A program made the position numbers and the translations under genes. 64,000 nt of DNA from Erodium maritimum (taxonomy: Eukaryota > Streptophyta > Magnoliopsida > Geraniales > Geraniaceae). Positions within the stretch are counted from its first letter, which is position 1; each line of letters begins with the position of its first letter. The notes beneath the pieces were generated by a model that saw only the letters and a program-made list of their open reading frames with translations, was not told the DNA's origin and did not search any database. The stretch is from the NCBI GenBank assembly GCA_963921825.1, contig OY997589.1:41798638-41862637 (forward strand). Reading direction: 5' to 3'. Shown here in pieces: positions 14,467-53,859 of the stretch.

Positions 14467-15069
14467 AATCTGTCACACCCCAATTTCAGCGAATCGAACT
14501 CGGGACGCGAACTTTTAAAACATGAATACTTAAAAACCTGTTTTGAATAAAAGCTTTGACATTTCCATTTATTTACCAAAATAATAGTAGTATTTACAAT
14601 ACAAAAACGTCCCAACAAGTGGACAAGGTACACATCCGTCACTAGACTCAACAAAAGTAAAGACCAGACTCCGCTCCAAGCGCCATGAACTTCAAGAGCT
14701 CACCTAGTCCGTCCCACGAACAGTACCTGTAGGAAAAGCAGCTAGGGGTGAGCGTTCGCTCACCACCACGGATAACAAACTGACTACGGCATAATTAGCA
14801 GACAAAGCCAGTAACACTAAAACCAAACCCAACACTGGGACTATAGTCCCCAACTCAAGTACCCAACTGACCCACAACCCGTTACCTTCCTCAACAGACT
14901 CAACACTCGATAACACAATGTAGACCCGACACAACTATCGACGACCTCCTCCAAGGACACGACAGAAAGACTACACAACGCCAAACAAGATCACAAAGGA
15001 TCGCACACCAAACAAGATCACAAAGGATCGCATACCAGCTGCTCAGTAACCTCTCCCACTCACACGAAC

Positions 15070-15300
15070 ACGGATCATGCTAGCCAAAGAATGCTTACAA
15101 CCTGTGATACTCAAACTCGGACCAGGCCAGCCAAAGAATGCTTGCAACCTGTGTTACTCAAACTCGGACCAGGCCAGCCAAAGAATGCTTGCAACCTGTG
15201 TTACTCAAACTCGTGTCAGGCCAGCCAAAGAATGCTTGCAACCCGTTGATACTCAAACTTGGTCAGGCCAGCCAAAGAATGCTTGCAACCTACCGGGATC
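15070..15300. repeat. LTR minisatellite, about 44-bp unit
   Basis: About five tandem copies of a unit containing GGCCAGCCAAAGAATGCTTG, at the position where the other LTR copies carry different repeats. Confidence 0.88.
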
Positions 15301-15599
15301 CGCAATCACAATCACACGCAAATTCATCAACTAGTAACAACACAAGTTCAACACTCACAGGCACTCATGGCCACCAAGACACCAACAGTAAAACTCGAAC
15401 TCAACAGCCCCACAGGCACTCACGGCCTCCCAAGACACACCGACAGTAAGACACGGACTCAACAACCCCACAGGCACTCACGACCTCCCAAGACACCAAC
15501 CATAAGACACGCTTGCAACTTACCGGGACTCTAACTCGTAAGCCAGCTAAAGGAAGCTTGCAACCCCCCCTCCGAGACTCTAACTCGGTCAGGCCAGCC

Positions 15600-15915
15600 A
15601 AAGACACCATCCTTAGTACACGGGCCCTCAAGGCCACCCAAAACACCAATTTAAATACACGGGCTCTCATGGCCACCCAAACTCAATCAATAAATAATAC
15701 GGGCTCTCAAGGCCACCCAAACCTCGATAATAAAAATACGGGCTCTCAAGACCACCCAAACTCAATCAATAAATAATACGGGCTCTCAAGGCCACCCAAA
15801 ACTCGATAATAAAATACGGGCTCTCAAGACCACCCAAACTCAATCAATAAATAATACGGGCTCTCAAGGCCACCCAGAACTCGATAATAAAATACGGGCT
15901 CTAAAGGCCACTCAA
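15600..15915. repeat. LTR minisatellite, GGGCTCTCAAGGCCACCC unit
   Basis: About eight copies of a unit of roughly 37 bp containing ACGGGCTCTCAAGGCCACCC. The same family recurs at 53860-54090, 60170-60400 and, inverted, 27180-27600. Confidence 0.9.
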
Positions 15916-17605
15916 GACACCAAATAAGCAATCAACCTCCGGCTTAACCAAGCCTCCAACAGTCCTAACATCAACAGTTTCACAATCAACCTCCGGGCAT
16001 GGTCATATGCCTCCAGTACTCCTAATATAGATAAGTTCACAAACAACCTCCGGGCATGGTCATATGCCTCCAGTAAAACAATTAACGCTAAGTTCTCTGT
16101 TCCTACGACACTACTAAGTGTCACAAGCCTTTCCAATAATTACTAAGTCCCCGTAACATGCTTTTCTAATAAACGCTACAAACTCGTATCATGCTTTTCT
16201 AATATTTAAATAAACCTATTCAACCCACGACACCCCAGTGTCACATGCAATTCTACTGTTAACTTTCCCCAGTAAGGGCCGAGATCCGGCTACTTTTCCC
16301 TACCTCGTATATAATCCCAAAAGCGCTCCAACAACACCCGAAGTACACCCAGTCACTCGCCGAGCTTCCCTTTGCCTCGGTCCGTAGCACGATCTAAAAG
16401 AACACAAATTCAAAGTACTTTTAAACTAGTACGAATAAACCGAAAATTAACATACTTAACGCCCAAACGTAACCCCGACAATGCCGATCACTCCCAAACT
16501 TCACAATTACTCGATATTTTCGATAAAGGACCCGTAAAGGCCAGATTCGCCCGACATGGCGAATCTGCCCGGGTTTTGGTTAATTGCCTTCCGGGGCTCC
16601 AAAAGTTCCCGTTTTCGTTTCTACGGTCTTAGAATATTTCAAGGAACCCAACGCACTTGACGGAATTGAATTCCGACTTCTAAGTCAATTAATTAACGTT
16701 TAAAGTTTCCAAAACCCGTTAATTACAACTTCTCCAATTTAATTCCAAATTTCGATTCGATTAAGGATAAATGGTCCGGGGAACGTTTTAAACCACCCGA
16801 ACGATAAAAACCGAGCACCCGAGCATGTGGGCCCCACCCACACTACTTGGCCGAGACCCTAGGGTTTAAGGGGAGGCTTGGCCACCATGTGGTGGCTGCT
16901 GCCAGCTCCGGCCAGCCACCTCATGGCCGGCCGGCCACCACCCACGGTGGCCGGAGCTCCTCCCGAGCCTCCGGTCATCGGAAAACGTGAAATTAAACCC
17001 CCAAACACCTCTAAAACGTCTCCAACACCTCCCCACACTCTACACAACCCTAAGCCTTAGTTTATACTCAAACCCTAGCTTCCAAGAAAATAACCAAAAC
17101 GAGAATCGATTCGGGTATTACCGTAGAGGAGAACGAGGGGAACGGGATTGCTCTTTGCTTTGACTCGATCCAAGGGCTCGATCACAAACCCTAGCTCAAC
17201 CTCCCTTATTCTCTCTTCTTCTCCTTCTCCTTCTCTCTCTAAAACCTCTCTTCTTCTTTCTAATTTAAAACAACTAACACAAAAACCCAATTAAAACTCT
17301 TTTTTTTTCTTTTAAAACCCAAGTCTCGGCCAGCCCTTCTCCTCCATTCATTTTCCCCCCAAAACTAACACCACCACATTTAGGACATGTGTCAAGGTGG
17401 GTCCCACACCTTTTGGAAAATATCTAGTTAATATTTTCCAATCAGATTCGCGAAAATCGGACGTTTCGGGCCCCGAACGGGCACTTTTTCCCAAAAATTA
17501 TGAAACTTGGCGGGCCACAAGGAAACGGCTCAACTAAGACCGCTGCGATGACGGTTAAGCTTTTCGGATCCAAAACGGTCCTCGAATGGACCAAAACGTC
17601 GCTCG

Positions 17606-17631
17606 GTTGACTTTTCCAGCAAAAAGTCAAC
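17606..17631 (-). promoter_or_regulatory. inverted W-box hairpin in solo LTR A
   Basis: GGTTGACTTTT and an AAAAAGTCAAC arm face each other across a 4-5 base loop. TTGACT is a WRKY-factor W box. The element lies about 190-210 bp inside the LTR 5' end and recurs in other copies. Confidence 0.5.
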
Positions 17632-17851
17632 ATTTCTCAAATTGATCAGAAAGTTGCCCTGAGGCCCCCGTAACTCACTTTGGTCAATAACGGGGTCAGC
17701 TTAAGTCCGGTATGACACTCGGGGTCATTTTAGGTTCATTAAGTGTCCGTCTTAAAATTTTTAAATTTTCCTGTTTTTCGCAGGTTTGACTGGCGTTGAC
17801 CGGGAGTGGTTATTACATAATCTCAGCAACCGAATGAGCCATGGCTCTATA

Positions 17852-22199: not shown

Positions 22200-22374
22200 T
22201 GTAGAAATAAGAAGTTGTTCTTATTCACTTGATCTGAATATACATAGAGACTAGATATATATACACAATTACATGAATTCACTAGTACCCCATTAATGGT
22301 AGGACCATTAATGGGTGACTCTTAGACTGCTAGGACAACTAATAGGTGACCCTTAGTTTCCCACATTCATTACA
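22200..22374 (-). repeat. Copia-1 5' LTR
   Basis: Partner of 14000-14159. On the sense strand it is the upstream LTR. It has a 15-bp internal duplication (CCATTAATGG region). Confidence 0.92.
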
Positions 22375-22379
22375 TGAAA

Positions 22380-22909
22380 TAGAGTAGAGAAATACAATAC
22401 CCAAAGTCTATACAAAGATGTTCTTCCGAGTAGAAATCCTCTCCCTAGCTTGCTCTCAACGCTCCTCTCTTCTTAGCTCTCAAAAATACAAGTCAAGTCT
22501 ATTGGAAGGATGAGTTTTGGGTTAAATAGGGTAAAAATAGATTCTGAAACAAATTAGGGAAGACAGTCTGCGCACGCGTCACGACTCCTTGGGCGTGCCC
22601 GTCACGGCCACCGTCACGGATCAATGAGTTCTGGCAAATTTTTGTCTTTGTCACGGCTTCGTGACCCTACCCGTGACGGGCTCCGTCACGGATCTGTGAT
22701 GGATCTGTCTTGGTCCACCGTCTTGAATGCTGCTTTCAAATTTATTCCCTTTTTGACGTATTTATGCTCGTATTCCACTCTATAACCTGTTAAACATGAG
22801 AAATGCTGGAAACGAGTAAAACACGGGAGAGTGAGACAATAATCGGCTAAAATCACTGATAAAATCCCTCTAAATGTGGTATTTTTAATGCTAAGATGCG
22901 TCCGCATCA
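22380..22909 (-). repeat. Athila 3' LTR, proximal part
   Basis: Continuation of 13181-13999, matching about 40005-40540. It contains clustered CGTCACGG/CCGTGAC words (22570-22705) and ends GCATCA (sense start TGATGC). Confidence 0.9.
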
Positions 22910-22919: not shown

Positions 22920-24611
22920 CTTAGACTGTTTCTCGCCCCGAGAAAATCAAAACAAGAAGACATCATCACTAAGATAGAACCGGTTAAACCCCGAGGTTCA
23001 CCCCGATAGGAGAAGTTTGGTACTCCTTTATTCAAGACATTAAGACATAAAGATGCACGTGCAATGCATGAATCCTAACTCTAAAGTATTCCTATAACAC
23101 ACTATATGATGCATGAAAAATGGCATAAAAAGCAGGTGATATTCAAAGCCGTGCATAAAATATCACATGGGTTTTCTCAGAATCGCCACATGCCAAAAAA
23201 TTTACACTCATCAAGGAAGCATATGAACCAATGAATACATTAAAGCAGGACGCTACTCACATTAAAGAGTTAACTCTTTCCTTTTAAACTTGCATTTACT
23301 CATTCACCATAACCGTGAGTTTCCTCATTTCCCCATACATGGAGTTTAGAGATTCATATGCTATCATGCTAGACCCATCTCCACTAATTGTAAGGAACCA
23401 TGGTTATTCAAGAATCAAAAGGGTCTTTAAATCAGCTTGTAATGTAATGCTAGGTAAAGGGTAGTCAAAAGAAGCTCAAATAAATGCCTCAGGACAAAGC
23501 TCAAATAAATGCCTCAAGACAAAGCTGCTTCATTCTCACACATCCCAAACCCCATTTGTTTACCATCCAACTCTTGCAATCTCTAATACCATTTTTTTTA
23601 TTGAATAGCTAATAGTAGCACTACTATGCCATCGCTATCCATAAGTTCATCACCTTTCTAAACCACTATCACGCCTTACCCCACACTTATTTTTCACTAG
23701 GGATATTAATTAATTATTTTTCTCTGTCCCTTTTTATTTTCTTTTCTTTGGGGTAAGGCGATGATAAAATTGTTCTCAGTACAAACCAATGGCATATTAT
23801 CCTTTCATCTCTTTTTCTCTCTTTCGCTCACTCATTATCCAAAAAATAACCACTCTCAATGAAGCAACTAAGCCTAGAGATATGGGTTCAAACAATAATG
23901 GGGATGTAAACATGAAACGAAAGGCACATAGGATTGTAATGTTGGGTTTAGAAACGAAAGGCTTAGGCTCAAATGGGTAACTAAGAGATTCAATCATGCA
24001 AGGGTAGGCAATTTTTAGCTCAAACGATCCATAGATGGCTTAAAATCATTTTCCTAAACAACCATGTTCCTTATTCTTATTTCGCCTCTAATGGGTCGTA
24101 CATGTAGTTCCAGACTCAAGTCTCCACGCATAGGAATCAAAGGCAAACAACACGAGTTCTAGAAAACACTCAAAAGCAAGTGGAAGAGTTAATCCTAATG
24201 CATGTGCTTTCACTACTTATTTGATTCATTCATGCCCATATACAACCTTTATTTATGCAAGAACTAAGCATTTGCGACAATTCAATCATCGAACCCTTAG
24301 GAACATAAACACTAAACTTACATATCACAAGAAAATATTTTTTGATTTTTCAAAAAAATTCAATTTTTGTGGATTTTCCAAAAAGTTTATATCACATAAT
24401 GATGCATGAGCACACAAAAGAAAACACAATGCAATGCAAGGCATACCCCACCCTCACTTTAAAACTAAGCATTGTCCCTAGTGCGACTCTAAACACATAT
24501 TTACAATCTAAACACATATATCCACATGCACATAATAGAAGCTAACAATAAAGCACCCCACACTCATAGTTAGCAGGTATACAATTCACACACCCCTATA
24601 TGCATAGTCTA
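22920..24611 (-). other. Athila 3' untranslated region
   Basis: Low-GC sequence between the small membrane ORF and the polypurine tract. No frame over about 70 codons and no domain is visible. Such long 3' UTRs are usual in Athila. Confidence 0.6.
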
Positions 24612-24809
24612 TCAGCATGGCATTCGGGCACTCAGGGCCCACCAGATAGCATAAAGGAAGTAAATAGCGATAACAGTGTAAAATAGGAGGGGTAGAGATA
24701 CTGCCCCTCGAAGAACCGCTACGTGAACTACACTGACTGTGGAGATCCTCGTGCATGGATGGATTGAGAGCTCTTCGTCCGAGAGAATATCCAGGACGTT
24801 CGGCGCCAT
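24612..24809 (-). CDS. small ORF with one membrane segment (Athila)
   Basis: 65 codons starting MAPNVLDILSDEELSIHPC and holding one hydrophobic stretch (VSLPLLFYTVIAIYFLYAIW), followed by a short tail. It starts 41 bp downstream (sense) of the second hairpin module at 24850. It could be the membrane part of an env-like region or a chance frame. I do not recognise it. It has no start-context or codon evidence strong enough to prove translation. Confidence 0.35.
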   Translation of the reverse strand: MAPNVLDILSDEELSIHPCTRISTVSVVHVAVLRGAVSLPLLFYTVIAIYFLYAIWWALSARMPC

Positions 24810-24849
24810 AATCTGCTACGCTGAACTCATCTCGCTCTCCATGCGATGT

Positions 24850-24926
24850 GTTGGGTTGCCACCCAACGAGCGCATTTTTTTAACGCCGTTAGCTCGACGA
24901 AAGGGGTGGCCATAGAAGCCACCCAA
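24850..24926 (-). promoter_or_regulatory. Athila two-hairpin module, copy 2
   Basis: Hairpin one at 24850-24867 has arms GTTGGG and CCCAAC. Hairpin two at about 24905-24926 has arms GGGTGGC and GCCACCC. Between them is AGCGCATTTT...TTAACGCCGTTAGCTCGAC, matching the copy at 30659-30727. Confidence 0.65.
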
Positions 24927-25147
24927 GCACCTCTCCAGAAGCCACTGATCGGCAGAGCTAATGCTGACACAGACTCAAACAAAAACATAAAATGCATGGG
25001 AAATAAAACACAACTTACGCTTTCCCAAATCCATCAAGCCCTAGCGATGCTGAAATCAGATAATGATCAGAAACCACGCAACATGCATAAAATAAATGAT
25101 GGGAAAGCGTAAAACACATATATACAAAATGCAAATGGACCCTCTCA

Positions 25148-25222
25148 CTGCGGGTAGTCAGGAGGGAGGTCAGAGAAATGGCCAGACCAGTGGCTGCAAC
25201 CCCACCAATTAGACCCCATGCG
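25148..25222 (-). pseudogene. env-like ORF, C-terminal exon beyond solo LTR B
   Basis: With the solo LTR removed, the frame from 28464 runs straight on from the ATGCG target site into MGSNWWGCSHWSGHFSDLPPD and stops at about 25148. It is the C-terminus of the env-like protein described at 28464-29733. Confidence 0.7.
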
Positions 25223-28200
25223 TGTGAAGACCGCTTCAAAAAAAAAAACTGTTGGGTCGGTCCGGGTCAGACCAGACCCGACCAGCAACCCGGCCAGACC
25301 AGCAACCCGGCCCGGGCAGGCCATCTCTGGGCCGCGCGGCCCACTTCGGCAAAGCTCGAAAATCAGGCCCGGTTGGGGTGGCCCAAGCCCGTGGGAGCTC
25401 GGGTATAAAACCCCTCCTCCTCCCTCAGAAACCCTAATCCCCTCACTCTGCCGCCCCTCTCCTCTCCCGAACCTGACGTCACCCTCTCCCTTCCTCCTCT
25501 TTCACGCCGTCTTCTCCCTCACCGGATCCGGCCACCACCCTCTCCCTCGCCTCCTCTCCCTTCCCTCACTCCGTCTTCTTCGAACCTCATCCCCGACCTC
25601 CCCTTCGACGCCGCCACCTCCTCCGTCCGACCACGACATCCACCGCCCTTCCTTCCTCTCCGGCCCTCTCAACGCCACCGTCCCTCCCCCCCCTCACAGT
25701 TCGTCTCCGACCTCCTTCTCCCCTCCGACCACCGTGAAACCCTTCCTCCGTCGCCTCCCTCTCGAAGCCGTAGCCTCCGCCTCTCTGACCTTCTGAACCA
25801 CCTCGTCCCCGACCCCGCCGGTATCGTCCTCAACGTCGCCGGCGCTCACCAGATCCGGCGAGTTACGGCCGGATTCAGTCAGATCCGAGGGGAAACCCTC
25901 AGCCGCGCCCCGTCGCGCCCACGACCACCACCACCACCGCCGCCGTCGTCGCCCTTTCCCCCTTCCTACGGTGAGCCCTACCACCGTAAGGTTCTGATCG
26001 GCCGACTTCGAAAACCGAGCTTCTCCTTTTGTTTATTTTCTCTCCAGAAAAAGTTTGAATCTGGCCGTGTATTTTTGGAAATGAAATCAGAAAATTAAAG
26101 ACGTTGATCTGTAAAAATGGGAAATTGTGTAAAACAAAACCGGATTTGACTAAAGGAGAAAAATGGTTTAATTTGAGTTTTATATTAAAATCAGATTTGT
26201 TCAAAAGGGGGTTATGATCTGTTTTGATCAAAAGAACTGATTTTTGGGCGTGTGGAATCGAAGTTGGAACATAAATGTGAAAAGAAAAAAAAAATTCAAA
26301 AGGAAAGTATAACGAAACCTAAGTTAGATAGAAAGGGGTTTAAAAATCAGATTTAAATTGGAAAATGATTTAAAATAAAATGAATTAACATCAATTTGGT
26401 TTTAATAACGGTTTTGAGTCGAGGAGTTTTGAGAAACAAATTGGTAGGAAAATGAGCTAAAACGACTTTGGTTTTAAAAAGGAATTAAAAAGAACAATCA
26501 GATTTGATTTAAAATGGGCCTTGAACTGTTGAGCGTGGAACGAATAATCGGGCTGTTGAAACGGACTTAGGATGGGTTTAACAGCGGAACACGGAATCGG
26601 TGCCTCGGGAGCCGTGTCTCGAAATCCATGCACCGGGTTCTGTGCTTGGGGCTCGAAACCGATTCGTCGTGATCCCGCTTTTAGCCCGCTCGAGTTTAAA
26701 AGACAAATGTCGGATTTAAACTGGACAAATCGTAATCTTTAACCTAACGGTGGAACCGTTATTAATTTATGGCTTCGTGTTAAATTTAGAGTGCGGCTTC
26801 GATCGAAGTGAAGCCCGGAGGTAGCGAGCCAGGACGTCAGCAGCTAGGAGACGTAGCGGTTGCTCTTCAGTTGAGGTAGGGAAAAGTAGCCGGATCTCGG
26901 CCCTGACTAGGGAAAGTTAACAGTAGAAATGCATGTGACACTGGGGTGTCGTGGGTTGAGTAGGTTAGCGAATATTAGAATTGCATGATACGGGAACGTA
27001 GCGATTATTGGAAATGCATGTGACATTTAGTAGTGTCGTAGGAGCAGAGAACTTAGCGATAATTGAATTACTGGAGGCATATGACCATGCCCGGAGGTTG
27101 TTTGTGAAACTAGCGATCTTAGGACTGTTGGAGGCATCGATTATGCCGGAGGTTGTTGCTGTTATTTGTTGTTGAGTTTGGGTGTCCTTGAGAGCCCGTG
27201 TTATTTATCATCGAGTTGGGTGGCCTTGAGAGCCGTGTTTTTTGTTGTTGAGTTTGGGTGGCCTTGAGAGCCCGTGTTATTTATCGTCGAGTTTGGGTGG
27301 CCTTGAGAGCCGTGTTGTTACTGTTGAGTTTTGGGTGGCCTTGAGAGCCCGTGTTACTATTGCTGAGTCTTGGGTGGCCATGAGAGCCCGTGTTGTCGTT
27401 TTGGTGTTTTGGGTGGCCGTGAGTGCCCGTGGGGTTGTGAACCAGTGAGTTACCATTGGTGGTTTTGAGTGGCCGTGAGTGCCCGTGGGGTCGTTGAGCC
27501 GTGAGTTACTATTGGTGTATTTTGGGAGGCCGTGAGTGCCTGTGGGGCTATTGAGTCCGTGTTTTAGGGTTGGTGTCTTGGGTGGCCATGAGTGCCTGTG
27601 GAGTGCTGAACTTGTGTTGTTGCTGTTCTTGAACTGTGATTGTGATTGTGGTTACCTGAGGTTGTGGGCCCGCTTCATTAAACGGGGGTCCTCGATCACA
27701 TGCGTCTGCACGTTCAGACGGGGTAGGGGGCCCGCCCGTCAGTAAAGGGGTCCTGGCCGCGCGTGTGTGGTTCGGTGGTTGTGAGTGTGATAGGTCGACA
27801 GCCTGATCCGACTTTGTGTCGAGGAATTGCAACAGGTCGACCGCCTGACCTGATGAGATCGGTAAATGGCGCAAGGGAGGTTACTGAGCAGCTGGTTTGC
27901 GATCCTTTGTGATCTTGTTTGGTGTGCGATCCTTTGTGATCTTGTTTGGTGTTGCGTAGCTTTCTTTCGTGTCCTTGGAAGAGGTCGTGGTCGTCGTGTC
28001 GGGTCTACATCACGAGTCTGAGTGTTGAGTCGTTCGAGGAAGGTCACCGTGGGTGTTTGTCAGTCAGAGTACTTGAGTTGGGGATAGTGTTCCCCGGGGT
28101 TGAGTTTATTGTGGTGTTACCGGCATTGTCTGCTAATTATGCCGTAGTCAGTCTGTTATCTGTGGTGGTGAGCGAACGCTCACCCCTAGCTGCTTTTCCT

Positions 28201-28458
28201 ACAGGTACTTGTCGCAGGTCGGACTAAGTGAGCTTCCGAAGCTTGAAGAGCTAGGGGCGGGAGTCCGGGTTACTTTTAGTCTAGCGACGGATACCTCGCT
28301 TTTTGTCCGCTTGTGGGACGTTTTATTTTGAGTTGTAACTATCCTTTGTTGAACTAAACTGGTATTGTAAAGTGTTTTAATGGAAATGGTTTCAAAGTGT
28401 TTTTCTTATTTTTAACATTCGCGTCCCGAATTCGGTTTACCGAAATTGGGGCGTGACA
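25223..28458 (+). mobile_element. chromovirus solo LTR (B), 3236 bp
   Basis: It starts TGTGAAGACCGCTTC and ends ATTGGGGCGTGACA. Exact 5-bp duplication ATGCG (25218-25222, 28459-28463). The 3' half (from about 26820) matches the other LTR copies: GTAGCCGGATCTCGGCCC, the GAGAGCCCGTGTT repeats, and the AGCGAACGCTCACCCCTAGCTGC block. The first 0.8 kb differs from the others and is very C/T-rich (25430-25980), so this is a divergent subtype. The long frames at 25218-25796 and 25694-25984 come from this low-complexity DNA. Confidence 0.9.
27180..27600. repeat. LTR minisatellite (inverted relative to 15600)
   Basis: About nine copies of a unit with GGGTGGCCTTGAGAGCCCGT or GAGTGCCCGTGGGG variants, the complement of the GGCTCTCAAGGCCACCC repeats. 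Confidence 0.9.
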
Positions 28459-28463
28459 ATGCG

Positions 28464-29733
28464 GGTCTGGATCCAGTCAACAGACATCGACACAGTGGAC
28501 AAGGACTCAAGACTGGAGTCCACCGTGTCAAATCGGGTGTGAACCCTGTCGAACTGAGCATCCATCCCACCAAACCGAGTATCGACCCCATCAAATCGAG
28601 TAGATATACCCTGAAACCGGGTAACATACTCATCATGACGAGTCTACTGTCTCTGGAAACCCGCTCGCATCTCCCCTTGGACAGCTTTGATCTGGGCTGA
28701 CAGGGCCGCATACCTAGCATCTTCTTCTCCCTCGTCCTCTCTTGGCTCGGGGATTGCCTTTCTCATCTCGGTACCGTTAAAAACTGACTGGCCGACATAA
28801 GTGGACTTGAAGAGCATGTGGGATTCCTGCGGGTTGTCCCAAACCCCAAAAAATTGGGCTAATTGTGTGGAAATCATCGCACAACCAATCCTCCCAGTAG
28901 GCCTGACAGCATGCTGTTCCAGGTGTTTCATAAGGAGCTTCTCAAAGGGGGCTTGAATTCCCTTTTCGAAATAGTGAAGAATCCAAACCTCCTTATGCTT
29001 CACGATGTGTAAGTTATCACTCCGTGTAAAAAGAGTGTAACTCAACACCCTATGCATGTATTTAAGCATAATGGACTTGAGATGCTTGGCATGGGGACTC
29101 GAGGACAGGGGTATGTTGGGTTCACTAATCTCATCCCAAGCATCCTTGATTGGACAATATTGGGGGTAGTCCCCCTCAATAGGAGTAAACCCGCATGCTT
29201 CTCAAAAATTCAAATCTGTCGAGTTTAAATACTCGCCCACACAATCTAAATTCCAAAGTTTTGTCGCTCCAGATTTCCCGACCAAACGACGTGAGAAAAT
29301 CGAGAGTGAGTTTCTCATAATGTCGGGGTTCCCAACCCCATAGTCTCGACCACCCAAAGGCATTTAGGCGTGCCTGGAATTCATCCGCAAAACCCAAAGT
29401 TCGTGTGACAAACTTGGTATCCACGAAACGATTTTGCATAGTGCCTCGTTTCAAGTTTTGTTCAAGAAGCTTAATTTCCGATTCATGGGTAAAAATTAGG
29501 CACGGGCGATTGGGAGTACCTATGGACGAGTTCCGAGCAGTCCGAGGTCTCTGTTCAGCCTCCTCCGAATCAGAGCTCGGGTCCGGATGAAGGATTCTCA
29601 ATGGTGCAAGCTGTGATCTCGACACCTCTCCCTTTGACTGCTTCCGCTTGTTAATGGGTGCCATCTGAAACAAAACAACCAAGGAAAGATCAAAGCAAAC
29701 AAATAAAAATTTTGCACAAAAAGCAACCCTCAC
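28464..29733 (-). pseudogene. Athila env-like / ORF3 protein
   Basis: The minus strand starts MAPINKRKQSKGEVSRSQ near 29661 (the open frame begins at 29733). It continues NRFVDTKFVTRTLGFADEF and LNAFGWSRLWGWEPRHYEKL, then after one frameshift (about 29210) AWDEISEPNIPLSSS, RVLSYTLFTRSDNLHIVKHK, GRIGCAMISTQLAQFFGVW and a Glu-rich segment. One in-frame TAG (28641-28643) precedes a perfect seven-residue repeat (consensus TRFDxVD, five copies), a probable coiled coil. This is the extra ORF found downstream of pol in Athila-type elements. Its function is unknown. The solo LTR at 25223 splits off the last 25 codons. Confidence 0.7.
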
Positions 29734-29758
29734 TGCCCAACCAAGGAGGTCACCACAG

Positions 29759-29946
29759 AGCCGTGAAGAGGTCCGTCACGGAGATCAGGTCGGAGCCGTG
29801 AGGAGGTCCGTCACGGAGATCAAGTCGGGGCGTTGAGAAGGTCCATTACGGGTTCCAGGCCGGAGCTGTGAGGAATGCGCTACGGAGAATAGGCCGGAAC
29901 CGCGATGTTGTCCGTGATGGTGAACAGGCCGGAACCGTGAGAGATC
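29759..29946. repeat. 35-bp minisatellite in Athila leader
   Basis: About five tandem copies of a 34-35 bp unit (GAGGTCCGTCACGGAGATC, then GGCCGGAGCCGT). It lies upstream (sense) of the hairpin leader block and just 3' of the pol-env spacer. Confidence 0.85.
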
Positions 29947-30404
29947 TTAGCGGCCAAAATTTCCAGCCACACTTCACCGAACGCCGGCGATGAGGTCCAG
30001 TCCGAAGCTCATGGTTAGGAGGGTATGGAGGTTGGGAAGTTTGAAGGGAAGAGTGGTTTGGGTTTAAGGGTTAAAGAAGGTGAGATTGAGTTAGGGTTAA
30101 GAAAAGGGTAGAAGGAGAAAGGTTTGGAGATTGGCGTGATAGTGGTTGAAGGTTTGAAAGGTTGAAGGAGAATGGAGATTGAAGAGAATGTGTGTGGGAT
30201 GATGAGAGGTTGAAGAAAAAGAAGAGTAAGTGGGTGGAGGCGTTAAAGAGGGGATGAAGAGAGGAGTTAGGTTTTGGAGAAAGAAAGAAGAAGAGGGTTC
30301 AGATTAGGCTTTGTTCAGTGGGCTTCGAACTGGGCCTGAGTGGGCTTCAAACTGGGTCTGGTTGAATGGGCCGCCCGACCTGATCTCTATTTTTTTTCTT
30401 CTCT

Positions 30405-30545
30405 TCGCTCGGTCACGGACCCGTGACCCTAACCGTGGCGGCCACCCTGACGGAGCCGTGATGCAGCTCCGTTTTTTTTGTTTTCACTCTGTTGCGTCAC
30501 GGAGCCGTGATGGTCTCCGTGACGGTGTTCCTCCCGGAGCCGTAA
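30405..30545 (-). repeat. LTR-like CGTCACGG block in Athila pol-env spacer
   Basis: It contains GGTCACGG-AC-CCGTGACC and TCACGG-AG-CCGTGA inverted repeats. The stretch GTCACGG..CCGTGACCCTA.CCGTG matches LTR positions about 40281-40330 and 22650-22700. Confidence 0.6.
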
Positions 30546-30658
30546 CTCTACAAAACATGTCTTTGCTTTTTATGATCCTCCTATTCTTCCTCTGACAATC
30601 CTGCACACAAATGCATCTATCAATTCACGAAAAACAATTAAAATAAACATAAAATAAC

Positions 30659-30727
30659 CTCGGGTTGCCTCCCGAGAAGCGCTTTTGTTTAACATCGTTA
30701 GCTTGACTCAAAAGCGGCTTAAGCCGC
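30659..30727 (-). promoter_or_regulatory. Athila two-hairpin module, copy 1
   Basis: Hairpin one at 30659-30676 has arms CTCGGG and CCCGAG. Hairpin two at 30714-30727 is GCGGC-TTAA-GCCGC. It begins 7 bp after the pol stop codon (30734). Conserved words between the stems are AGCGCTTTT, TTAAC and CGTTAGCTTGAC. Confidence 0.65.
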
Positions 30728-30733
30728 CTCTAC

Positions 30734-30956
30734 TTACTCATAATCTGGCTCCTCCAGGTATAGGCACTCCTCTGGTCCCAATGGTCCACCATAATAATGC
30801 TTAACTCGGTGTCCATTGACCAAAAATGGGGCCCGCTTTCCATCACAAATCTCCACCGCCCCTTTTGATAGGACTCGAGTTACTGTAAAGGCCCCGCTCC
30901 ACTTCGAAACGAGCTTCCCGGAGAAGATATTCAACCTATAGTTATATAGAAGGACC
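30734..30956 (-). pseudogene. Athila integrase C-terminal domain
   Basis: The minus strand encodes NIFSGKLVSKWSGAFTVTRV, GAVEICDGKRAPFLVNGHRV and KHYYGGPLGPEE, the small beta-rich C-terminal domain of gypsy integrases (FPGKLxSRWxGPFxV...VNGxRLKHYY). It ends pol at a stop at 30734. The solo LTR at 30962-33703 separates it from the catalytic core. Confidence 0.85.
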
Positions 30957-31148
30957 CTATCTGTAAGAACCGCTCCCGGTCAATGCCAGTCAAATCGGCG
31001 GAAAAACAGAAAAATTTAAAATTTTGGGACATACACTTAAATGAACCTAAATTTGACCCAGAGGGTCATATCGGACTTAAGTCGACCCCGATATCGACCA
31101 ATGTGAGTTCTGGGGGACTCAGAGCAACTTTTTGACCAATTTGGGAAA

Positions 31149-31176
31149 GGTTGACTTTTTGCCAGAAAAGTCAACC
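31149..31176 (+). promoter_or_regulatory. inverted W-box hairpin in solo LTR C
   Basis: GGTTGACTTTT and AAAAGTCAACC arms form an 11-bp perfect stem, about 190 bp from the LTR start. Confidence 0.55.
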
Positions 31177-32814
31177 GAGCGACGTTTTGGTCCGTTCGAG
31201 GACTGTTTTGGATCCAAAAAGCTTAGCCGCCGTTACATCGGTCTTAGTTGAGCCGTTTCCTTATAGCACGTGAAATTTCGTAATTTCTTGGAAAATGGGC
31301 CCGCACGGGGCCCGAGACGGAAGAATTTCGCGAATCTGACTGAAAAATATCTACAAAGATATTTTTCAAAAAGGTGGGACCCACAAGACACTTGTCACCT
31401 AAGTGGTGGTGGTTGGTTTTTAAAATTAAGAAAAATAAATAAGAAGTGGTAGTTTTGTAATTAAGAGGTTGGTGTTGTTTTTGAACAAAACAAAAGGAAG
31501 GAAATGGCAGAGTGTTCGACCATTTGATAAAAAAGGAGAAGAAGGAGAGAGAAAGGAGAGAGAAGAAGGAGGAAAGGAAAAAGGAAAAGGAAAAGGAAAA
31601 GGAAAGGGTGGGTTTTTTGTGATTTCCCGACGATCCGACCGACCGATCGACTCAACGACTGCGGATTCAAACTCCCCTCGTCATTCCCTACGGTGAGAAC
31701 CCATTCTTTTCTCGTTTTGGTACGTTTGAAAATTAGGTTTTGAGTTTAAACGAGTCAAATGTGGTTGGGTTTTGGTTAGAATTGGTTTAAAGACGAATGG
31801 TTGAGGTTTGGGGTTCGTTAGGAACGTTTTGTGGCGAAAAGGAAAATTTTCCATTGTGGCCATGTGGGGCCCACTTGCCCGGGACTCAGGTTTTTCGTGT
31901 TCCGGTGGTTTTGGACGATCCCCGAATCGATAATTCACACCCGGAAGGAATTATGGAATTAAATTGTGAAAGTTGGAAACTTCGGGTTTAGTAACTTTAA
32001 ACGCGAATTAAATCGCTCGGAAGTCTGAAATTGATTCCGTCGATTGCATTGAAACCCTTGAATTATTTTAAGATCGTAGAAACGAAAACGGGAATTTTCG
32101 GAGCCCTGGAAGGACGTTTTCCGATCCCGGGCAGATTCGCCGAGCCGGGCGAATCGGGCCTTTCCGGGCCCATTGTTGACAATGTCGAGTAATTGGGAAG
32201 TTTGGGAGTGATCGGCATTGTCGGGGTTGCGTTTGGGCGTCAAATTCATTAAATTCGGGTTTCACTTGCTTATTTAAAAAGTGTGTTATTTGGGATCATT
32301 GTAGACAGTGTCGCCGACCGTGGAAAGAGGAGGCTAAGCGGGAAATCTGGAGCATTGCCGGAGCGCGAGCATCGGTTTTGACACGCTTCAAGAGGTGCGG
32401 AAAAGTAGCCGGATCTCGGCCCCGACTAGGGAAAGTTAACAGTAGAAATGCATGTGACACTTGGGTGTTGTAGGATCAGTGAACGTAACGAACATTAGAA
32501 ATACATGTGACACCTAGAGGTGTCGTAGGATAAGTGAACGTATCGAACAATAGAAATGCATGCGACACTTAGTGGTGTCATAGGATAAGTGAAAGTATCG
32601 AACATTAGAAATACTTGTGGCATTTGGTTGTGCCCGTAGGTTGATTAAATTGTTTGTGTTTGTGGGTGGCCATGAGTGCCTGTGGGGATTTGAACCCGTT
32701 TTGGTTGACTGACTTGCCGAGTGGTAGTTAGTCGTGTTGTCGTATTTTCTTTCTATTTGCGGGGTATTGTGTGTTATTTGGTTGTGACTGTGATTGTTCT
32801 GGTGATGACTGTTG

Positions 32815-33175
32815 AGCTATGCCCGATGGGTGTGTCGTACCCTCCGGTGCGCGGTCGGTAAAGTGCTGAGGGCTGTGGTTCCCGTCAGGTGCGTCGTACC
32901 TTCCGGCGCGTGATCGGTAAAGTGCTGAGGTTAGAGCTGTGCCCGAAGGGTGTGTCTTACCCTCCAATGCGTGGTCGGTAAAGAGCAGAGGGCTTTGGTT
33001 CCCGTAGGTGTGTCGCACCTTCCAGCGCGTAATTGGTAAAGTGCTGAGGCTGGATTTATGCTCGAGGGGTGTGTCATACCCTCCGGTGCACGGTCGGTAA
33101 AGAGCAGCGAGCTGTGGTCCCCGTCAGGTGTGTCGCACCTTCTGACGCGTGATCGGTAAAGTGCTGAGGCTTGTG
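32815..33175. repeat. LTR minisatellite, about 57-62-bp unit
   Basis: Six units, each with GTGTGTCGTACCCTCCGGTG or a close variant and CGGTCGGTAAAGTGCTGAGG. Odd and even units alternate slightly (CCGA(T/A)GGG versus CCGTCAGG), suggesting a dimeric repeat. Confidence 0.88.
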
Positions 33176-33708
33176 GTTGTGGTTTGCGTGACTTTGATCA
33201 CTTTTGTGTTGTTGTGCTCTTTGTGGTCGTCATTACGGTGTCGGGTCTACACTACGGGTACGGGTGTTTAGATTGGTTGGGGAAAGTAACAGTTTTCGTG
33301 TGATAGTCAGGTTATTTTGAGTTTGGGGATAGTAGTCCCCGGTGTTTTGTTTGTTGTTGGTGTTTCCGGCATTTCTACTAGTATGCCGTAGTCAGTCTGG
33401 TATCCGTGGTGGTGAGCGAACGCTCACCCCTAGCTGCTTTTCCTACAGGTACTGGTCGCGAGGCGGACTAGGGGAGCTCTCGAAGCTTGAAGAGCTGGGA
33501 GCGGGAGTCCGGGTTTTTCGGAGTTTAGCGACGTACGCTTTGGTTTTTGTCCGCTTGTTTTGGACGTATTTTCAGTTCTAGAAATATTGTTTTTGATTAA
33601 CTTTAGTGGTGATTTTAAGCCGTTTATTAAAATGTTTGAAAATTGTTTTACTGTTTCACCGTTCGCGTTCTGGGTCCGGTTATACCGAATTCGGGGCGTG
33701 ACACTATC

Positions 33709-34638
33709 TCCTTCCCTAAACTCCCTTTGCACAATTTTCTTGTCATGGGCGATCTTGGTGCGCTCCTTGTATAGCTCTGTGCTGAAATAAGAAGGGGACT
33801 TAAACTCGTCCAGCTCATTAATCTACATCAACCTCTTTTCAGCACAAAGATTAGCATCAAAATTTAAGAACTTAAGCGACCAATATGCTTTATGTTGTAA
33901 CTCTAACGGTAAGTGACATGACTTCCCATATACTATCTTATGCGGTGACATTCCAATAGGGGTTTTATATGATATTCTATATGCCTAAAGTGCATCATCT
34001 AACTTTTGTGCCCAATTTTTCCTATACATATCAACAGTCTTTTCTAAAATACTTTTTAATTCCCTATTAGTAACTTCCACTTGCCCGCTAGTTTTGGGAT
34101 GGTAGGGTGTAGCTAAGCGATGGGTGACTCCATACTGATTTAGAAGTTTCCAAAATATCTTATTGCAAAAATGTTTTCCACCATTGCTTACTATTGCCCT
34201 GGGTGTGCCAAACCGGAAAAAAATGTGCTTCTTAAGGAAAGCGACCACCGGCTTGGCATCATTAGTGGGTAAGGGTATCGCCTCTACCCATTTTGACACA
34301 TAATCAACTGCAACTAGTACATATTCCATACCGTTAGATCGAGGGAATGGACCCATGAAATCGATGTTCCATACATCGAATAACTCTACCTCTATGGTAA
34401 TGTTTAAAGGCATCTCCTGCTTCTTTGATGTATTGCCTGTTCTTTGGCACCTGTCACATTGCTCAACAAATCGAATAGCTTGATGAATAAAGTAAGGCCA
34501 ATAAAAACCTGATTGAAGTACCTTTTGAGTTGTCATCTGTGGTCCAAAATGGCCTCCTACATCACCCCGTGGCATTGATGCAAAATAGTTTCTTGCTCCT
34601 CTTCGTGGACACACCTTCTCACCATTTGATATGCACAA
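33709..34638 (-). pseudogene. Athila integrase zinc finger and catalytic core
   Basis: The minus strand gives [20 protein letters not shown] and [11 protein letters not shown] (HHCC zinc finger), [12 protein letters not shown] with the first catalytic Asp, [17 protein letters not shown] where the second catalytic Asp is Asn, and [19 protein letters not shown] with the Glu. After a stop at 33984 the frame reads AYRISYKTPIGMSPH and VYGKSCHLPLELQHKAYW up to the solo LTR. Loss of the second Asp means it cannot insert DNA. Confidence 0.9.
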
Positions 34639-35309
34639 ATTTTAAACAGAAAAGGATCATCCCAAAAATATTTTTTCAAATCATGTAAGAACTTCTTCTT
34701 TTGGTAGGATGTCATGTCGCGAATTAGAGCACCACTTGTCAAGTATTTTTCAAAACTTGCAAACCACGGGGCTTCGACGAGCTTTGCTTGGAATAGGTGC
34801 TCATCTGGAAACTCTTCATTTATCAGTTTACTTAGTTCTTCATATGGATTCTCAATCCTAGATAAATGGTTTGTTATCACATTCTCTACTCCTTTCTTGT
34901 CCCGTATTTCCAAATCAAATTCTTGGAGTAGTAAAATCCACCTTAGCAGTCTAGGCTTGACATCCTTCTTGCTAAACAAGTACTTAAGAGCTGCATGGTC
35001 AGTGTATACTATAACCTTGGACAAGACAAGATATGGGTGAAATTTGTCACATGCAAATACAACAGCTAATAGTTCTTTTTCAGTAGTAGCATAATTTAAT
35101 TGAGCCTCATTGAGAACTCTACTAGCATAGTATATGGTATGAAAAATCTTATCTTTCCTTTGCCCTAAAACTGCTCCTACCGCTATATCACTAGCATCAC
35201 ACATCAATTCAAAGGGTATTACTAGTGCATTTACCAATTTTTCTTTTAAGGTTAAGAAGCTTTTCAAACATGCATCATCAAAATTAAAAGGGACATCTTT
35301 TACTAGCAA
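34557..35309 (-). pseudogene. Athila RNase H
   Basis: The minus strand encodes [20 protein letters not shown] (first RNase H Asp), [36 protein letters not shown] (catalytic Glu) and [20 protein letters not shown] (catalytic Asp), then [19 protein letters not shown] and [10 protein letters not shown]. The order and spacing are those of the Ty3/gypsy RNase H. The frame is long and open, but joins RT and integrase through frameshifts. Confidence 0.9.
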
Positions 35310-35446
35310 GTTACATAATGGTTTAGAGATTTCAGAAAGTCCTTTTATAAATCGCTTATAAAACCCTACATGTCCTAAGAAACTTCAAATTCCTTTTATA
35401 TTAATAGGTGGAGGTAATTTCCCTATTACATCCACTTTGGCCTTAT

Positions 35447-36322
35447 CTACCTCAATCCCTTTAGAAGAGATTTTGTGGCCTTAGACAATTCCCTGTTGTA
35501 CCATAAAATGACATTTTCCCAATTAAGAACAAGGTTTGTTTCTTCACATCTAGTCAACACTTTATGCAAATTATTTAAACAGTTATCAAACGAAGAACCA
35601 AACATAGAAAAATCATGCATAAATACTTCAAGGTAATCCCCAATCATGTCATGAAAAATAGCAGTAATGCATATTTGAAATGTAGCAGGCGCATTACATA
35701 AAGCAAACGACATTCTCGTATATGAAAATATTCCATAAGGGCAAGTTAAAGTTGTTTTCTCTTGATCCTCAGGAGCTTTGGCTATTTGGTTGTACCCACT
35801 ATATCCGTCTAGAAAGCAATAGTATTCATGTCTAGCTAATTTTTCTAACATCTGATCAATAAAAGGCAAGGGGAAATGGTCTGTTCGGGTGGCATCATTT
35901 AACTTCCTATAGTCGATGCATACTCTCCACCCTGTAACAGTTCTAGTAGGAGTTAATTCATTCTTATCATTTGTTACTACCGTCATCCCCCCTTTCTTAG
36001 GCACACATTGAATATGACTAACCCAAGCACTATCAGAAATGTGATAGATAATACCTGCATCGAGTAGGTTTATAATTTCTTTTTTTATTACCTCTTGCAT
36101 TAATGGGTTGAGCCTCCTTTGTGGTTGCACAATTGGTCTGTAAGTATCTTCCATTAAGATCTTGTGCATACATGTTGACATGCTAATTCCTTTAATGTCA
36201 GCTACTGTCCATCCAAAAGCCTTTTTATGTTCCTTGGGCACCCTCATTAGCTTTTCCTCCTGTAGAGAAGACAATTCAGAAGAAATTATTACAGGTAAAG
36301 TATTGTCTTCATTCAAAAACAT
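35447..36322 (-). pseudogene. Athila reverse transcriptase
   Basis: The minus strand encodes KAFGWTVADIKGISMSTCMH, RRLNPLMQEVIKKEIINLLD, SAWVSHIQCVPKKGGMTVV, GWRVCIDYRKLNDATRTDHF, FLDGYSGYNQI, TCPYGIFSYTRMSFALCNAP and LEVFMHDFSMFG. The last is the catalytic box, where Athila-type RTs have FMDD; here the first Asp is His. Otherwise about 290 codons are open. RT and RNase H (35309) are separated by a short broken region. Confidence 0.92.
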
Positions 36323-36327
36323 GTATT

Positions 36328-37074
36328 TTAAATTATCTTAGATATTTCAAGCTTTGGGGCTTGTTCAACAGAGGGTTTTAGCATAGGCCCTTGCCTCGCT
36401 TCCAAGGTGAGACGAGTGTAGGGTCTATCTCTCTTTCTTGGAGGGCATGCCTCCAAGAGATTGACCATCTCTGGTTCATTATCCTGCATAAGATCACAAG
36501 TGTTTGTATCCTCATTAATTAAACATGCTGGCAAAGGATCCTCATGAATAAAATTTTCCTGCACTACAGAATCAATCAAGTCAATCCTATAACAAGTATC
36601 ATCAATTATAGCATGTTTAAGGGATCTGAAAACATTAAAACCCACTTCGTCTTTTCCATATCGGATGGTCAATTTCCCTTGCTCTACATCAATAAGAGCT
36701 CGGGCTGTGGCCAAGAATGGTCTTCCTAGGATTAGGGGAATCTCATAATCTTCTTGCATGTCCAAGATAACAAAGTCAGCAGGGAAAATAAAATTTTCAA
36801 CTTTTACCAACACATCTTCCACAATCCCTCTAGGGTACTTAATAGATCTATCAGCTAGCTGTAGGGACATAGAAGTTGGTTTCAATTCCTCTTTCAATCC
36901 TAATTGCTTGAAAATATTTAAGGGCATCAAATTTATACTAGCCACTAAATCACACAAAGCTTTTGCAAATGAAAGGGACCCCATTTCACATGGTATAGTA
37001 AAGCTACCCGGGTCTTTCAATTTAGGAGGCAGTTTATTTTGTAAGATCGCAGAACACTCCTCACTTAAATTCAC
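36328..37074 (-). pseudogene. Athila aspartic protease
   Basis: 248 codons. LPPKLKDPGSFTIPCEMG and ALCDLVASINLMPLNIFKQL give the retropepsin active site, where the usual D-L-G-A-S is D-L-V-A-S (Gly to Val). FVILDMQEDYEIPLILGRPF follows with the conserved ILGRPFL flap-side box. The Gly change next to the catalytic Asp should abolish cleavage of the Gag-Pol protein. It ends 5 bp before the RT frame. Confidence 0.9.
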
Positions 37075-39063: not shown

Positions 39064-39081
39064 TCCCCGGCAACGGCGCCA
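39064..39081 (-). promoter_or_regulatory. Athila primer binding site (tRNA-Asp)
   Basis: The sense strand reads TGGCGCCGTTGCCGGGGA, complementary to the 3' end of plant tRNA-Asp, 6 nt from the 5' LTR. The segment 38832-39063 is the untranslated leader. Confidence 0.93.
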
Positions 39082-39087: not shown

Positions 39088-40540
39088 TAACGCCCTGCAG
39101 TTTAAACAAAGAAAAGGACACGGCAAGCATACCGGTCGTCAAGTAGTATTTCAGGATTTTTAGTTCCGATTTATAGAACCCAAAGGAGCACGAGTCAAGC
39201 ACATTCTATCTCAAAGTCGTAGTCAAGCTATTTCGATAATATGATGGTGTAGTATTTCAGGATTTTTATTTCCGAGTTATCGAACCCAAAGGAGCACGAG
39301 TCAAGCATGTTCCATCCTAAAGTCGTAGTCAAGATATTTCGATAATATGATGGTTTTTTGTTTTGTTTTAAAACATGTAAAAGTAAACAGTAGGTAAATT
39401 GACAGTGAACAAGTACTCGCAAAGCTTGAAAGAGTTTTAATTCAGAGAAAAAGCAATCTAAGGTTTTGGGTTCATACTGGCCATTTCCAATGCATTTAAA
39501 TGACGATGAACATTGTGAAGTTATCTGATTTTAGGGGCAACAAATCATCTCTTAAACTAGTCCTAACTCCTCACGTTGTTTCGGACCCTAATGGAATCTA
39601 ACCACCAAGTTCTCACGAATCAAGATGTAAGAAGACCCAAAACACTACGTTCTTTGATAATTTCTAACTTTCGGTACGAATCCTTATGTTGTTGCGATCG
39701 TGTTAACCTAGCTATCACTAGTCTAAACCCAATTTGTATAAGATTTCTGACCTAATTGCAACCCACCTCTCACGAGTGCCAGATTGCAATTCCCACCTTC
39801 TGTCAGGCCTACCAGGGAGATAGAGCATCAAGATTAAATCGAATACAAACCCTAAATCAAATCATCCAACACAATACATATTCATACATTCAATACATTA
39901 GAAAGTAAATCTCTACTCCCTCATAACCCTATATTATGGGGTTTTAGTTACTCATGAACAAGGAAGAAGAAGATGTCATTGATGAACACAAACAAAGCTT
40001 CATAATGAAATAGAGTAGAGAAATACAATACCCAAAGTCAATACAAAGATGTTCTTCCGAGTGTAAATCTTCTCCCTAGCTTGCTCTCAACTCTCCTCTC
40101 TTCTTAGCTCTAAAAAATAAAAGTCAAGTCTATTGGAAGGCTGAATTTTGGGTTAAATAGGGTAAAAATCGAATCTGAAACGAATTAGGGAAGACAGTCT
40201 ACACGCGCGTCACAGCTCCTTGGGCGTGTCCGTCACGGCCACCGTGACAGATCAGTGAGTTCTGGAAATTTTTTGTCTTTGTCACGGCTCCGTGACCCTA
40301 CCCGTGACGGGCTCCGGCACGGATCTGTGATGGATCTGTCTTGGTCCACCGTCTTGAATGCTGCTTTCCAATTTATTCCCTTTTTGACGTGTTTCTGCTC
40401 GTATTCCACTCTATAACCTGTTAAACATGAGAAATGCTGGAAACAAGTAGAACACGGGAGAGCGAGACAATAATGGGCTAAAATCACTAATAAAATCCCT
40501 CTAAATGTGGCATTTTTAATGCTAAGATGCGTCTGCATCA
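39088..40540 (-). repeat. Athila 5' LTR, 1453 bp
   Basis: Matches 13181-13999 plus 22380-22909. It is about 104 bp longer because of a tandem duplication starting at 39143 and 39249 (unit about 106 bp, with TTTCAGGATTTTTA and CGAGTCAAGCA landmarks). The sense start is TGATGCAGACGC; the sense end is TTA where the other LTR has TCA. Confidence 0.92.
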
Positions 40541-42716: not shown

Positions 42717-43156
42717 AAACAATAAGGGTTAATTCCACCTCAGTACCCTAAATCTTTCGTATTTCATTTAAAGTACCCTAAATATTTTTTGTGTCACCTG
42801 AGTACCCTAAAATTTCATTAATTCATTTAGAGTACCCTAAATCTTTTTTGTATCAACTCAGTACCCTAAAATTTCATTAATTTCATTTTAGTACCCACCG
42901 TTAACTTTACATCTGATTTTTCATCCAAAACAGGTAAAATGACCATAGTACCCTCACTAACAATCAAATTTAAGGTAAAGTTAACGGTGGGTACTAAAAT
43001 GAAATTAATGAATGTTTAGGGTACTGAGGTGACACAAAAAAGATTTAGGGTACTCTAAATGAATTAATGAAAGTTTAGGGTACTGAGGTGACACAAAAAA
43101 GATTTAGGGTACTCTAAATGAAATATGAAAGATTTAGGGTATTGATGTGGAATTAT

Positions 43157-44843: not shown

Positions 44844-44855
44844 ATCTCCCACTTG
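44844..44855 (-). promoter_or_regulatory. Copia-2 polypurine tract
   Basis: The sense strand reads CAAGTGGGAGAT directly before the 3' LTR. Confidence 0.8.
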
Positions 44856-51616: not shown

Positions 51617-51624
51617 ATTATCCC

Positions 51625-53509: not shown

Positions 53510-53660
53510 GACCTATCGCAATTCCTCGACACGAAGTCGGATCAGGCTGTCGACCTTTAGAACTCGCAATTCATCGACACTAAGTCGGATCAGGCTGTCG
53601 ACCTTTAGAACTCGCAATTCATCGACACTAAGTCGGATCAGGCTATCGACCTTTAGAACT
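53510..53660. repeat. LTR minisatellite, about 51-bp unit
   Basis: Three tandem units containing GACACTAAGTCGGATCAGGC and TGTCGACCTTTAGAACTCGC. It occupies the place where copy A has the 44-bp repeat. Confidence 0.9.
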
Positions 53661-53859
53661 CACCACCCCAGGTAACCACAATCACAATCACAGGCAAGTT
53701 CAATCACACAGGCACTCAAGGCCACTCAAGACACCTCAACAGTCAAGACTCGGGTTCAACAACCCCACGGGCACTCACTGCCACTCAAGACACCTCAACA
53801 GTCAAGACTCGGGTTCAACAACCCCACGGGCACTCACTGCCACTCAAGACACCAAATTA

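Follow-up and report, generated by a model that had tools for sequence, protein, structure and literature searches.

Rous sarcoma virus (RSV) carries 115-nt direct repeats (DRs) that flank src; according to PMC3856414, strains lacking src keep at least one DR, and PMC9143442 describes the repeats as important for RNA export. The same virus has the RSV stability element (RSE) immediately behind gag (PMC5580461, PMC9143442). For turnip crinkle virus, PMC6277124 reports an unstructured stretch that protects RNA from nonsense-mediated decay (NMD); a two-base change that made a stable hairpin abolished the protection. The plant retroelements Calypso and Diaspora pair with tRNA-Asp (PMC1142308). The present work concerns a two-hairpin module of about 75 nt, found twice on the minus strand of a 64,000-nt stretch of Erodium maritimum DNA (the window; C2:41798638-41862637 of the 763-Mb genome). 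It lies in a long terminal repeat (LTR) element that appears, from its domain order, primer-binding site and extra open reading frame (ORF), to belong to the Athila lineage of Ty3.

The module consists of hairpin 1, a conserved core and hairpin 2. Copy A reads, in the sense direction, UAGAGGCGGC-UUAA-GCCGCUUUUG, GUCAAGCUAACGAUGUUAAACAAAAGCGCUU and CUCGGG-AGGCAA-CCCGAG; copy B reads GGGUGGCU-UCUAU-GGCCACCC, GUCGAGCUAACGGCGUUAAAAAAAUGCGCUC and GUUGGGU-GGCA-ACCCAAC. The positions, stems, loops and shared words given in a preliminary description of this stretch were all confirmed. The fold of copy B has a z-score of −4.76, with 0 of 200 dinucleotide shuffles as good; elsewhere, L175 (type C), L172 (type D) and L271 (type X) scored −3.12, −3.21 and −4.39. 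In the window alone, the word GGGNGGCAACCC with at most one mismatch has three matches against 0.66 expected, a weak excess reached by 5 of 100 shuffles. Over the whole genome, the module words occur far above chance: exact GGGNGGCAACCC is present 642 times versus 64 for the reversed word, and the core word CGAGCNAACGNNNTTAAACAA 622 times versus 0. Among 88 GG.GGCAACC sites (L157-L236 and the window), 73 match the core in at least 20 of its 30 letters; L173, one of the 15 without it, was still scored as a module in the model search. The 100 listed core places of contig C1 include 13 same-strand neighbour pairs 2.0-2.8 kb apart (2238-2558 nt) and no opposite-strand pair; 2000 random placements gave a mean of 0.03 such pairs and a maximum of one. 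The same contig has four core words on one strand at C1:122994441-123008986, spaced regularly at 4841-4843 nt; they may mark one-module elements arrayed head to tail. The matches listed for viral contigs were chance matches or none (joint check of 148 loci; L278-L280 and L286 are without a module), the single match in other genome contigs was due to chance (a LytTR-type bacterial gene by eye), and a protein search with the translated module frame gave no match.

The set compared comprises 115 module copies, all from this one genome: those of L157-L236, of L238-L277 (picked from the core-word list as places absent from the GGGNGGCAACCC list) and of the window, one of them a duplicate, since L249 and the second copy of L172 are the same. 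By context, there are 26 post-pol A, nine post-pol D, one divergent post-pol X, 39 C, nine E and 31 second-type B copies; the letters of hairpin 1 served to assign C and D, the translated end of the ORF to assign A, E and X, and B is the remainder. C copies follow an ORF judged by eye to be gag/protease-like, which gave no Pfam match, and E copies follow a reverse transcriptase (RT) stub ORF (tblastn, L165). Both types look like non-autonomous derivatives. An envelope reading of the C-type ORF end was rejected, the excess of differences at position 3 being weak (2632, 1969 and 2939 at positions 1, 2 and 3) and the ORF gag/protease-like by eye.

Paired changes maintain both stems to a degree that a tree-aware null does not reach. 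For this comparison 84 distinct rows were used: 80 from an earlier alignment, in which 1 of the 115 copies had been dropped for want of an anchor, that row restored, and three additional copies of lineage X. The columns were simulated 400 times on a FastTree tree with the changes per column kept, a home-made procedure after the idea of R-scape and distinct from that program. Hairpin 1 forms 5.49 of 6 pairs on average (null mean 3.80, maximum 5.06), with the caution that its arms were placed per lineage with differing loop lengths, which favours pairing; hairpin 2 forms 5.61 of 6 (null mean 4.31, maximum 5.39), and for both the independent lineages are few. Pairing in both hairpins thus exceeds all 400 simulations, and the compensatory stem changes proposed from the two window copies are borne out. 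The top three of 946 column pairs are the stem pairs 2-9, 26-43 and 28-41, with E-values of 0.006, 0.038 and 0.049 within the 16 structure pairs. In the 30 rows whose retrieval did not depend on either hairpin, the two helices again beat 400 of 400 simulations and two pairs fell below 0.05 (0.008, 0.027); a previous run (80 rows, 150 simulations) agrees. In the MAFFT alignment A1, three of the six hairpin-2 pairs have changed on both sides, with 97.6% of cells paired, and for the whole structure given there both the paired cells and the covariation score were reached by 0 of 500 shuffles.

The letters of hairpin 1 differ by lineage: GGCGGC/GCCGCC, GGUGGC/GCCACC, GGAGGC/GCCUCC, GGACCC/GGGUCC or GGCGGUUCAU/AUGAACCGCC. 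The last belongs to the divergent lineage X (L288), where hairpin 2 is CUAGG-AGGCAA-CCUAG; with letters different from those of the other lineages, it is the best single test of the structure. At all four X-lineage places found via the integrase end the module follows, with damaged stems in L289 (hairpin 1) and L287 (hairpin 2). Three further structural candidates were set aside. A middle hairpin GUCG/CGAC fits most copies without covariation (3.68 of 4 pairs, null 3.28, reached by 13% of simulations) and is not claimed; a hairpin-1/hairpin-2 switch is the best fold of one C-type copy only (L175), being absent from the A, B, D and X folds examined; and the palindrome AACGACGTT is lost in lineages A2 and D. 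A branch point in the core (CUAAC) was likewise rejected, its U being replaced by A or C in other lineages.

Among post-pol copies the module stands out from its flanks. In five comparisons of post-pol copies from different families, the core is 81-91% and hairpin 2 80-95% identical, while the sequence 60-340 nt downstream has 28-53% identity against 32-41% in a shuffled control. Second copies from different families share 88-91% of the core. Copies A and B of one element (five elements) share 75-91% of the core and 30-44% of the flanks, which is background. The post-pol lineages carrying the module have integrase ends down to 37.5% identical and RTs 57% identical, with a nearly identical core. 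The pol ends show a third-position excess (differences at positions 1, 2 and 3 of 180, 208 and 438 in A2 and 102, 88 and 363 in D), and the region upstream of B is without it (108, 119 and 118).

The module might, on the other hand, have no function: the repeat would simply have been inherited, and its pairing would have come about through common descent or through gene conversion between the copies. The small number of independent lineages and the many decaying copies agree with this, as do the non-stem pairs such as 26-28 and 19-43, which rank directly behind the stem pairs in score, a sign of shared descent. The tree-aware null is nevertheless exceeded for both hairpins, the core is nearly identical across lineages as distant as those just described, and the flanks of the two copies within an element are at background identity; this reading, already disfavoured, is very improbable.

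The modules are not scattered at random with respect to ORF ends: 84 of the 115 copies stand at an ORF end, and the remaining 31 belong to the second type. A frame open for 45 codons or more ends between −20 and +22 nt of the first base of hairpin 1, bounds chosen after inspection of the data, in 75 of the 84 copies of types A, C, D, E and X and in 5 of 31 second-type copies. In A1, C and D the loop of hairpin 1 contains the stop codon (UAA, UGA and UAG, respectively), and in all four X copies the stop ends 13 nt ahead of the long stem. Copy B is placed differently, 219-512 nt behind the ORF2-frame stop in L163, L164, L169, L172 and L174 (ORF2 being the extra, env-like-region ORF). The initial placement of the copies after the pol stop and after the env-like ORF therefore holds for copy A; copy B is not directly behind the extra ORF, because ORF2 is broken in the window and 3.7 kb and an LTR-like insertion intervene.

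Adjacency to stop codons suggests that the module might act as an RSE-like shield against NMD, marking each ORF stop as genuine despite a long untranslated region. The counts of ORF ends beside hairpin 1 and the constant 13-nt spacing in the divergent lineage speak for this, and RSV has such an element immediately behind gag (PMC5580461, PMC9143442). As the only role it is unlikely because of the position of copy B and because, according to PMC6277124, protection in turnip crinkle virus comes from an unstructured stretch and is abolished by a stable hairpin; moreover, with the stop inside hairpin 1 in three lineages, a terminating ribosome would presumably open that hairpin. A readthrough or frameshift signal for pol is disfavoured because the frame closes at most 36 codons after the stop in 73 of 75 copies (one closes at 49 and one is open to the end of the sequence examined, 69) and because of the same stops inside hairpin 1. 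In A2 and D the frame stays open through hairpin 2, leaving room for a short extension.

The number of modules follows the presence of ORF2. In a census of 21 stretches (20 long loci and the window), made by tblastn with the ORF2 of L163 and by a model search for modules, ORF2 was found in seven (L163, L164, L169, L170, L172, L174 and the window), and six of these have two strong module matches. All ten C and E stretches (L158, L159, L162, L165-L167, L171, L173, L175 and L176) have one module and no ORF2; the remaining four (L157, L160, L161 and L168), with neither, are chance word matches. For 22 of 30 non-duplicate second-type copies, a same-strand post-pol copy was located at most 10.3 kb upstream in the lists and loci examined (two partners by core word only).

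A T-rich stretch ending in (C/T)AG/G is situated 52-79 nt behind the post-pol copy in all seven ORF2-bearing elements inspected (read by eye, scored in part). It is a putative 3′ splice site, such as a spliced mRNA for the extra ORF would require. The 60 nt that follow hairpin 2 have a mean T content of 0.47 in A (20 copies), 0.44 in D (9), 0.62 in X (1) and 0.43 in C (39); the mean is 0.29 in E (9), 0.26 in the L241 type (6) and 0.23 in B (31). ORF2 starts about 0.83-1.0 kb behind the first module, and the intervening stretch holds 1 to 17 ATGs; for L170 and L172 the start is uncertain. A second acceptor-like site, TT(T)CAG/ATG, stands directly at the start of ORF2 in four of the seven (L163, L169, L174 and the window), all of one family. 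The module could accordingly be imagined to control splicing, regulating the acceptor behind it and balancing unspliced RNA against ORF2 mRNA. Both kinds of acceptor-like site are consistent with such control, as is the 907-nt leader of L163 with one ATG versus 7.1 expected. However, ATG depletion is not general across the seven elements, being clear in two only (shuffle shares at or below the observed count are 0.002, 0.018, 0.18, 0.21, 0.45, 0.48 and 0.79), second-type copies are without the T-rich stretch, at less than the T content of A and D, and elements without ORF2 keep the module; we consider this role quite doubtful. The role in expressing the downstream ORF originally put forward is thus retained in part, for RNA processing, on account of the acceptor-like site. 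Reinitiation or internal start is unsupported as a general role because no recognised ORF follows the second copy, ORF2-less elements keep the module, and the start of ORF2 is distant and preceded by the ATGs mentioned.

Elements without the extra gene retain a module. Besides the C and E types with their short ORF, it is kept by ORF2-less gag-pol elements of the L241 type (six copies in the set); the two examined (L281 and L282) have no second module and no ORF2 in 4.5 kb downstream. L158 (1375-7502) is a non-autonomous element with one module retained and LTRs 99.93% identical (1396 bp); its short ORF region has a hydrophobic stretch at the end and a stop in the hairpin-1 loop. LTR identity is 99.36% in L159 and 95.6% in L176. 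In the L241 type, hairpin 1 is of the post-pol type and hairpin 2 with its flank is second-copy-like, the mixture that recombination between the two copies would give. This mixture, together with the retention of the module in non-autonomous elements, would also suit an element for reverse transcription, packaging or RNA dimerisation whose repeat doubles as a strand-transfer site removing ORF2. Such a role is improbable: recombination between repeats needs no function, and the GCGC and AGCU words are not palindromic in all lineages.

The explanation that we favour, with a probability of about 0.5, is that the module is a cis-acting, DR-like RNA element by which Athila-group Ty3 elements would handle unspliced RNA, through export, stability or packaging. 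It is suggested because non-autonomous elements, L158 included, keep the module, because two modules accompany the extra gene and one its absence, and because one copy is placed between the pol stop and the acceptor-like site and the other where the long tail begins. The first copy, which immediately follows the gag-pol stop and shortly precedes the acceptor-like site, and the second, behind the extra ORF and heading a long untranslated tail, would act as RNA and be bound by a host or Gag protein; the bound module would keep the unspliced RNA exported, stable or packaged, as the duplicated DR does in RSV, while the ORF2 mRNA would arise by splicing. More tentatively, and somewhat short of even odds, the module may be a general RNA element of plant retroelements, with one copy per ORF unit, that would be the plant counterpart of the retroviral DR and constitutive transport element (CTE); recombination between copies would lose the envelope-like ORF, and non-autonomous derivatives would keep the module as needed in cis.

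Several observations weigh against the favoured explanation. The fold of copy A gives a modest gain only (z −1.54, 14 of 200 dinucleotide shuffles as good). Over all 946 column pairs, E-values fail 0.05 (best 0.72); in alignment A1 the four doubly changed pairs are reached by 107 of 500 shuffles; hairpin 1 beats mononucleotide shuffles on average only, its median observed score being reached by 3.7% of them; and in copies of type E2 a G-G mismatch interrupts hairpin 1 at its middle. The downstream flanks of second copies are 78-83% identical between L163 and L164, so the module is no island there, and 47-69% identical in two other between-family comparisons. L170 has ORF2 and no second module in the stretch examined, and eight of the 30 second-type copies (L184, L196, L233, L253, L261, L267, L268 and L277) are without a post-pol partner in the lists and loci examined. 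The analogy with the DR does not require the tight stop-codon adjacency seen in most copies. Finally, Rfam gave no meaningful match in window positions 24000-31500, the DR/CTE comparison having been made through Rfam only.

The absence of a match among known RNA families agrees with the preliminary description, whose author knew of no described structure. No description of the module was found in the literature searched, which leaves room for a prior one. Similar words presumably occur in other plants.

Table 1. Coordinates of the two module copies and of the surrounding parts of the host element, in window positions
Feature	Positions	Strand	Remarks
Module copy A	30659-30732	−	right after pol stop
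Copy A hairpin 1, UAGAGGCGGC / GCCGCUUUUG, loop UUAA	30709-30732	−	
Copy A conserved core, GUCAAGCUAACGAUGUUAAACA	30686-30707	−	
Copy A hairpin 2, CUCGGG-AGGCAA-CCCGAG	30659-30676	−	
Module copy B	24850-24924	−	
Copy B hairpin 1, GGGUGGCU / GGCCACCC, loop UCUAU	24904-24924	−	
Copy B conserved core, GUCGAGCUAACGGCGUUAAAAA	24877-24898	−	
Copy B hairpin 2, GUUGGGU-GGCA-ACCCAAC	24850-24867	−	
T-rich stretch ending in GTGTGCAG/G, 3′ splice-site-like	30601-30658	−	similar place behind other post-pol copies
Host element pol	33988-36337	−	Pfam: RT 35450-36337, RNase H 34560-35384, integrase core 33988-34641
Integrase C-terminus, terminating at pol stop	30737-30961	−	tblastn
pol stop codon TAA	30734-30736	−	just upstream of copy A hairpin 1
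Extra env-like-region ORF2, broken	28647-29682	−	tblastn homology to ORF between the two modules of L163
Primer-binding-site sequence, tRNA-Asp type	39067-39081	−	exact 15-nt match to letters that we take to be those of this pattern; just behind LTR-like sequence reaching about 39090
5′ LTR part	40005-40540	−	93.5% identical to 22374-22909
3′ LTR part	22374-22909	−	copy B 1.94 kb upstream in sense

The window is plant DNA, and the best-named relatives of its RT are plant proteins. The host element has Ty3-type domains in the order RT-RNase H-integrase (Pfam, tblastn), and an LTR-like insertion (about 30961-33703) interrupts its integrase end. Pfam family PF03078 (ATHILA) matched part of the L163 ORF2 weakly (E-value 0.032, 13.5 bits, under the cut-off of 20.2); the ORF2 pieces of the window itself gave no match to it. 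One LTR-like family is present at five places in the window (14469-17817, 26873-28458, 30961-33703, 52933-55889 and 59195-61896), including the copy that splits the Athila integrase C-terminus. A direct repeat (43157-44845 / 49930-51618) has 99.94% identity over 1689 nt and encloses a Ty1/copia RT (45494-46081, minus strand) and a zinc-knuckle ORF (47667-48266, minus strand, slightly under the Pfam cut-off); this is probably a very young copia element. A 426-nt near-palindrome (42730-43155), 85.8% self-complementary, directly adjoins its LTR-like repeat.

To our knowledge, the nuclear exit of intron-containing genomic RNA, its stability and the expression of the extra ORF are poorly understood in plant retroelements. 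A small, defined, covarying RNA element with hundreds of copies provides a handle suited to reporter assays. The module is also a possible marker for Athila-type elements, non-autonomous ones included, and its repetition offers a concrete route for the loss of the envelope-like ORF.

Compared with known systems, the module resembles most closely the RSV DR and the CTEs of simple retroviruses, which PMC3856414 and PMC9143442 describe as structured RNAs of about 100 nt, with two copies flanking the last extra gene and at least one kept without it. The module likewise has two copies flanking an extra gene, one kept without the gene, and conserved base pairing. It differs in its plant Ty3 host, in the tight placement of the first copy behind the pol stop and in its two small hairpins around a conserved core; the likeness is one of layout, without a shown sequence relation, and the module may be regarded as a works-alike of the DR/CTE rather than assigned as a member. 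Most post-pol, C and E copies, but few second-type ones, resemble the RSE in their place at the stop of an ORF followed by long untranslated RNA; unlike the RSE, which is 155-400 nt long with CU-rich sequences, the module is about 75 nt and structured, and copy B is away from a stop codon. The NMD-resistance regions of turnip crinkle virus are likewise plant-virus RNA elements just behind stop codons, but the account in PMC6277124 has the 3′ untranslated region acting unstructured and ties the other region to readthrough, whereas the frame entering the module soon closes. Among plant retroelements, soybean Diaspora, an env-less member of the Athila/Calypso lineage, is similarly a gag-pol element without an extra ORF; its pol stop is given in PMC1142308 as 128 bp from the polypurine tract, whereas the two ORF2-less gag-pol elements examined here keep the module and a longer tail.

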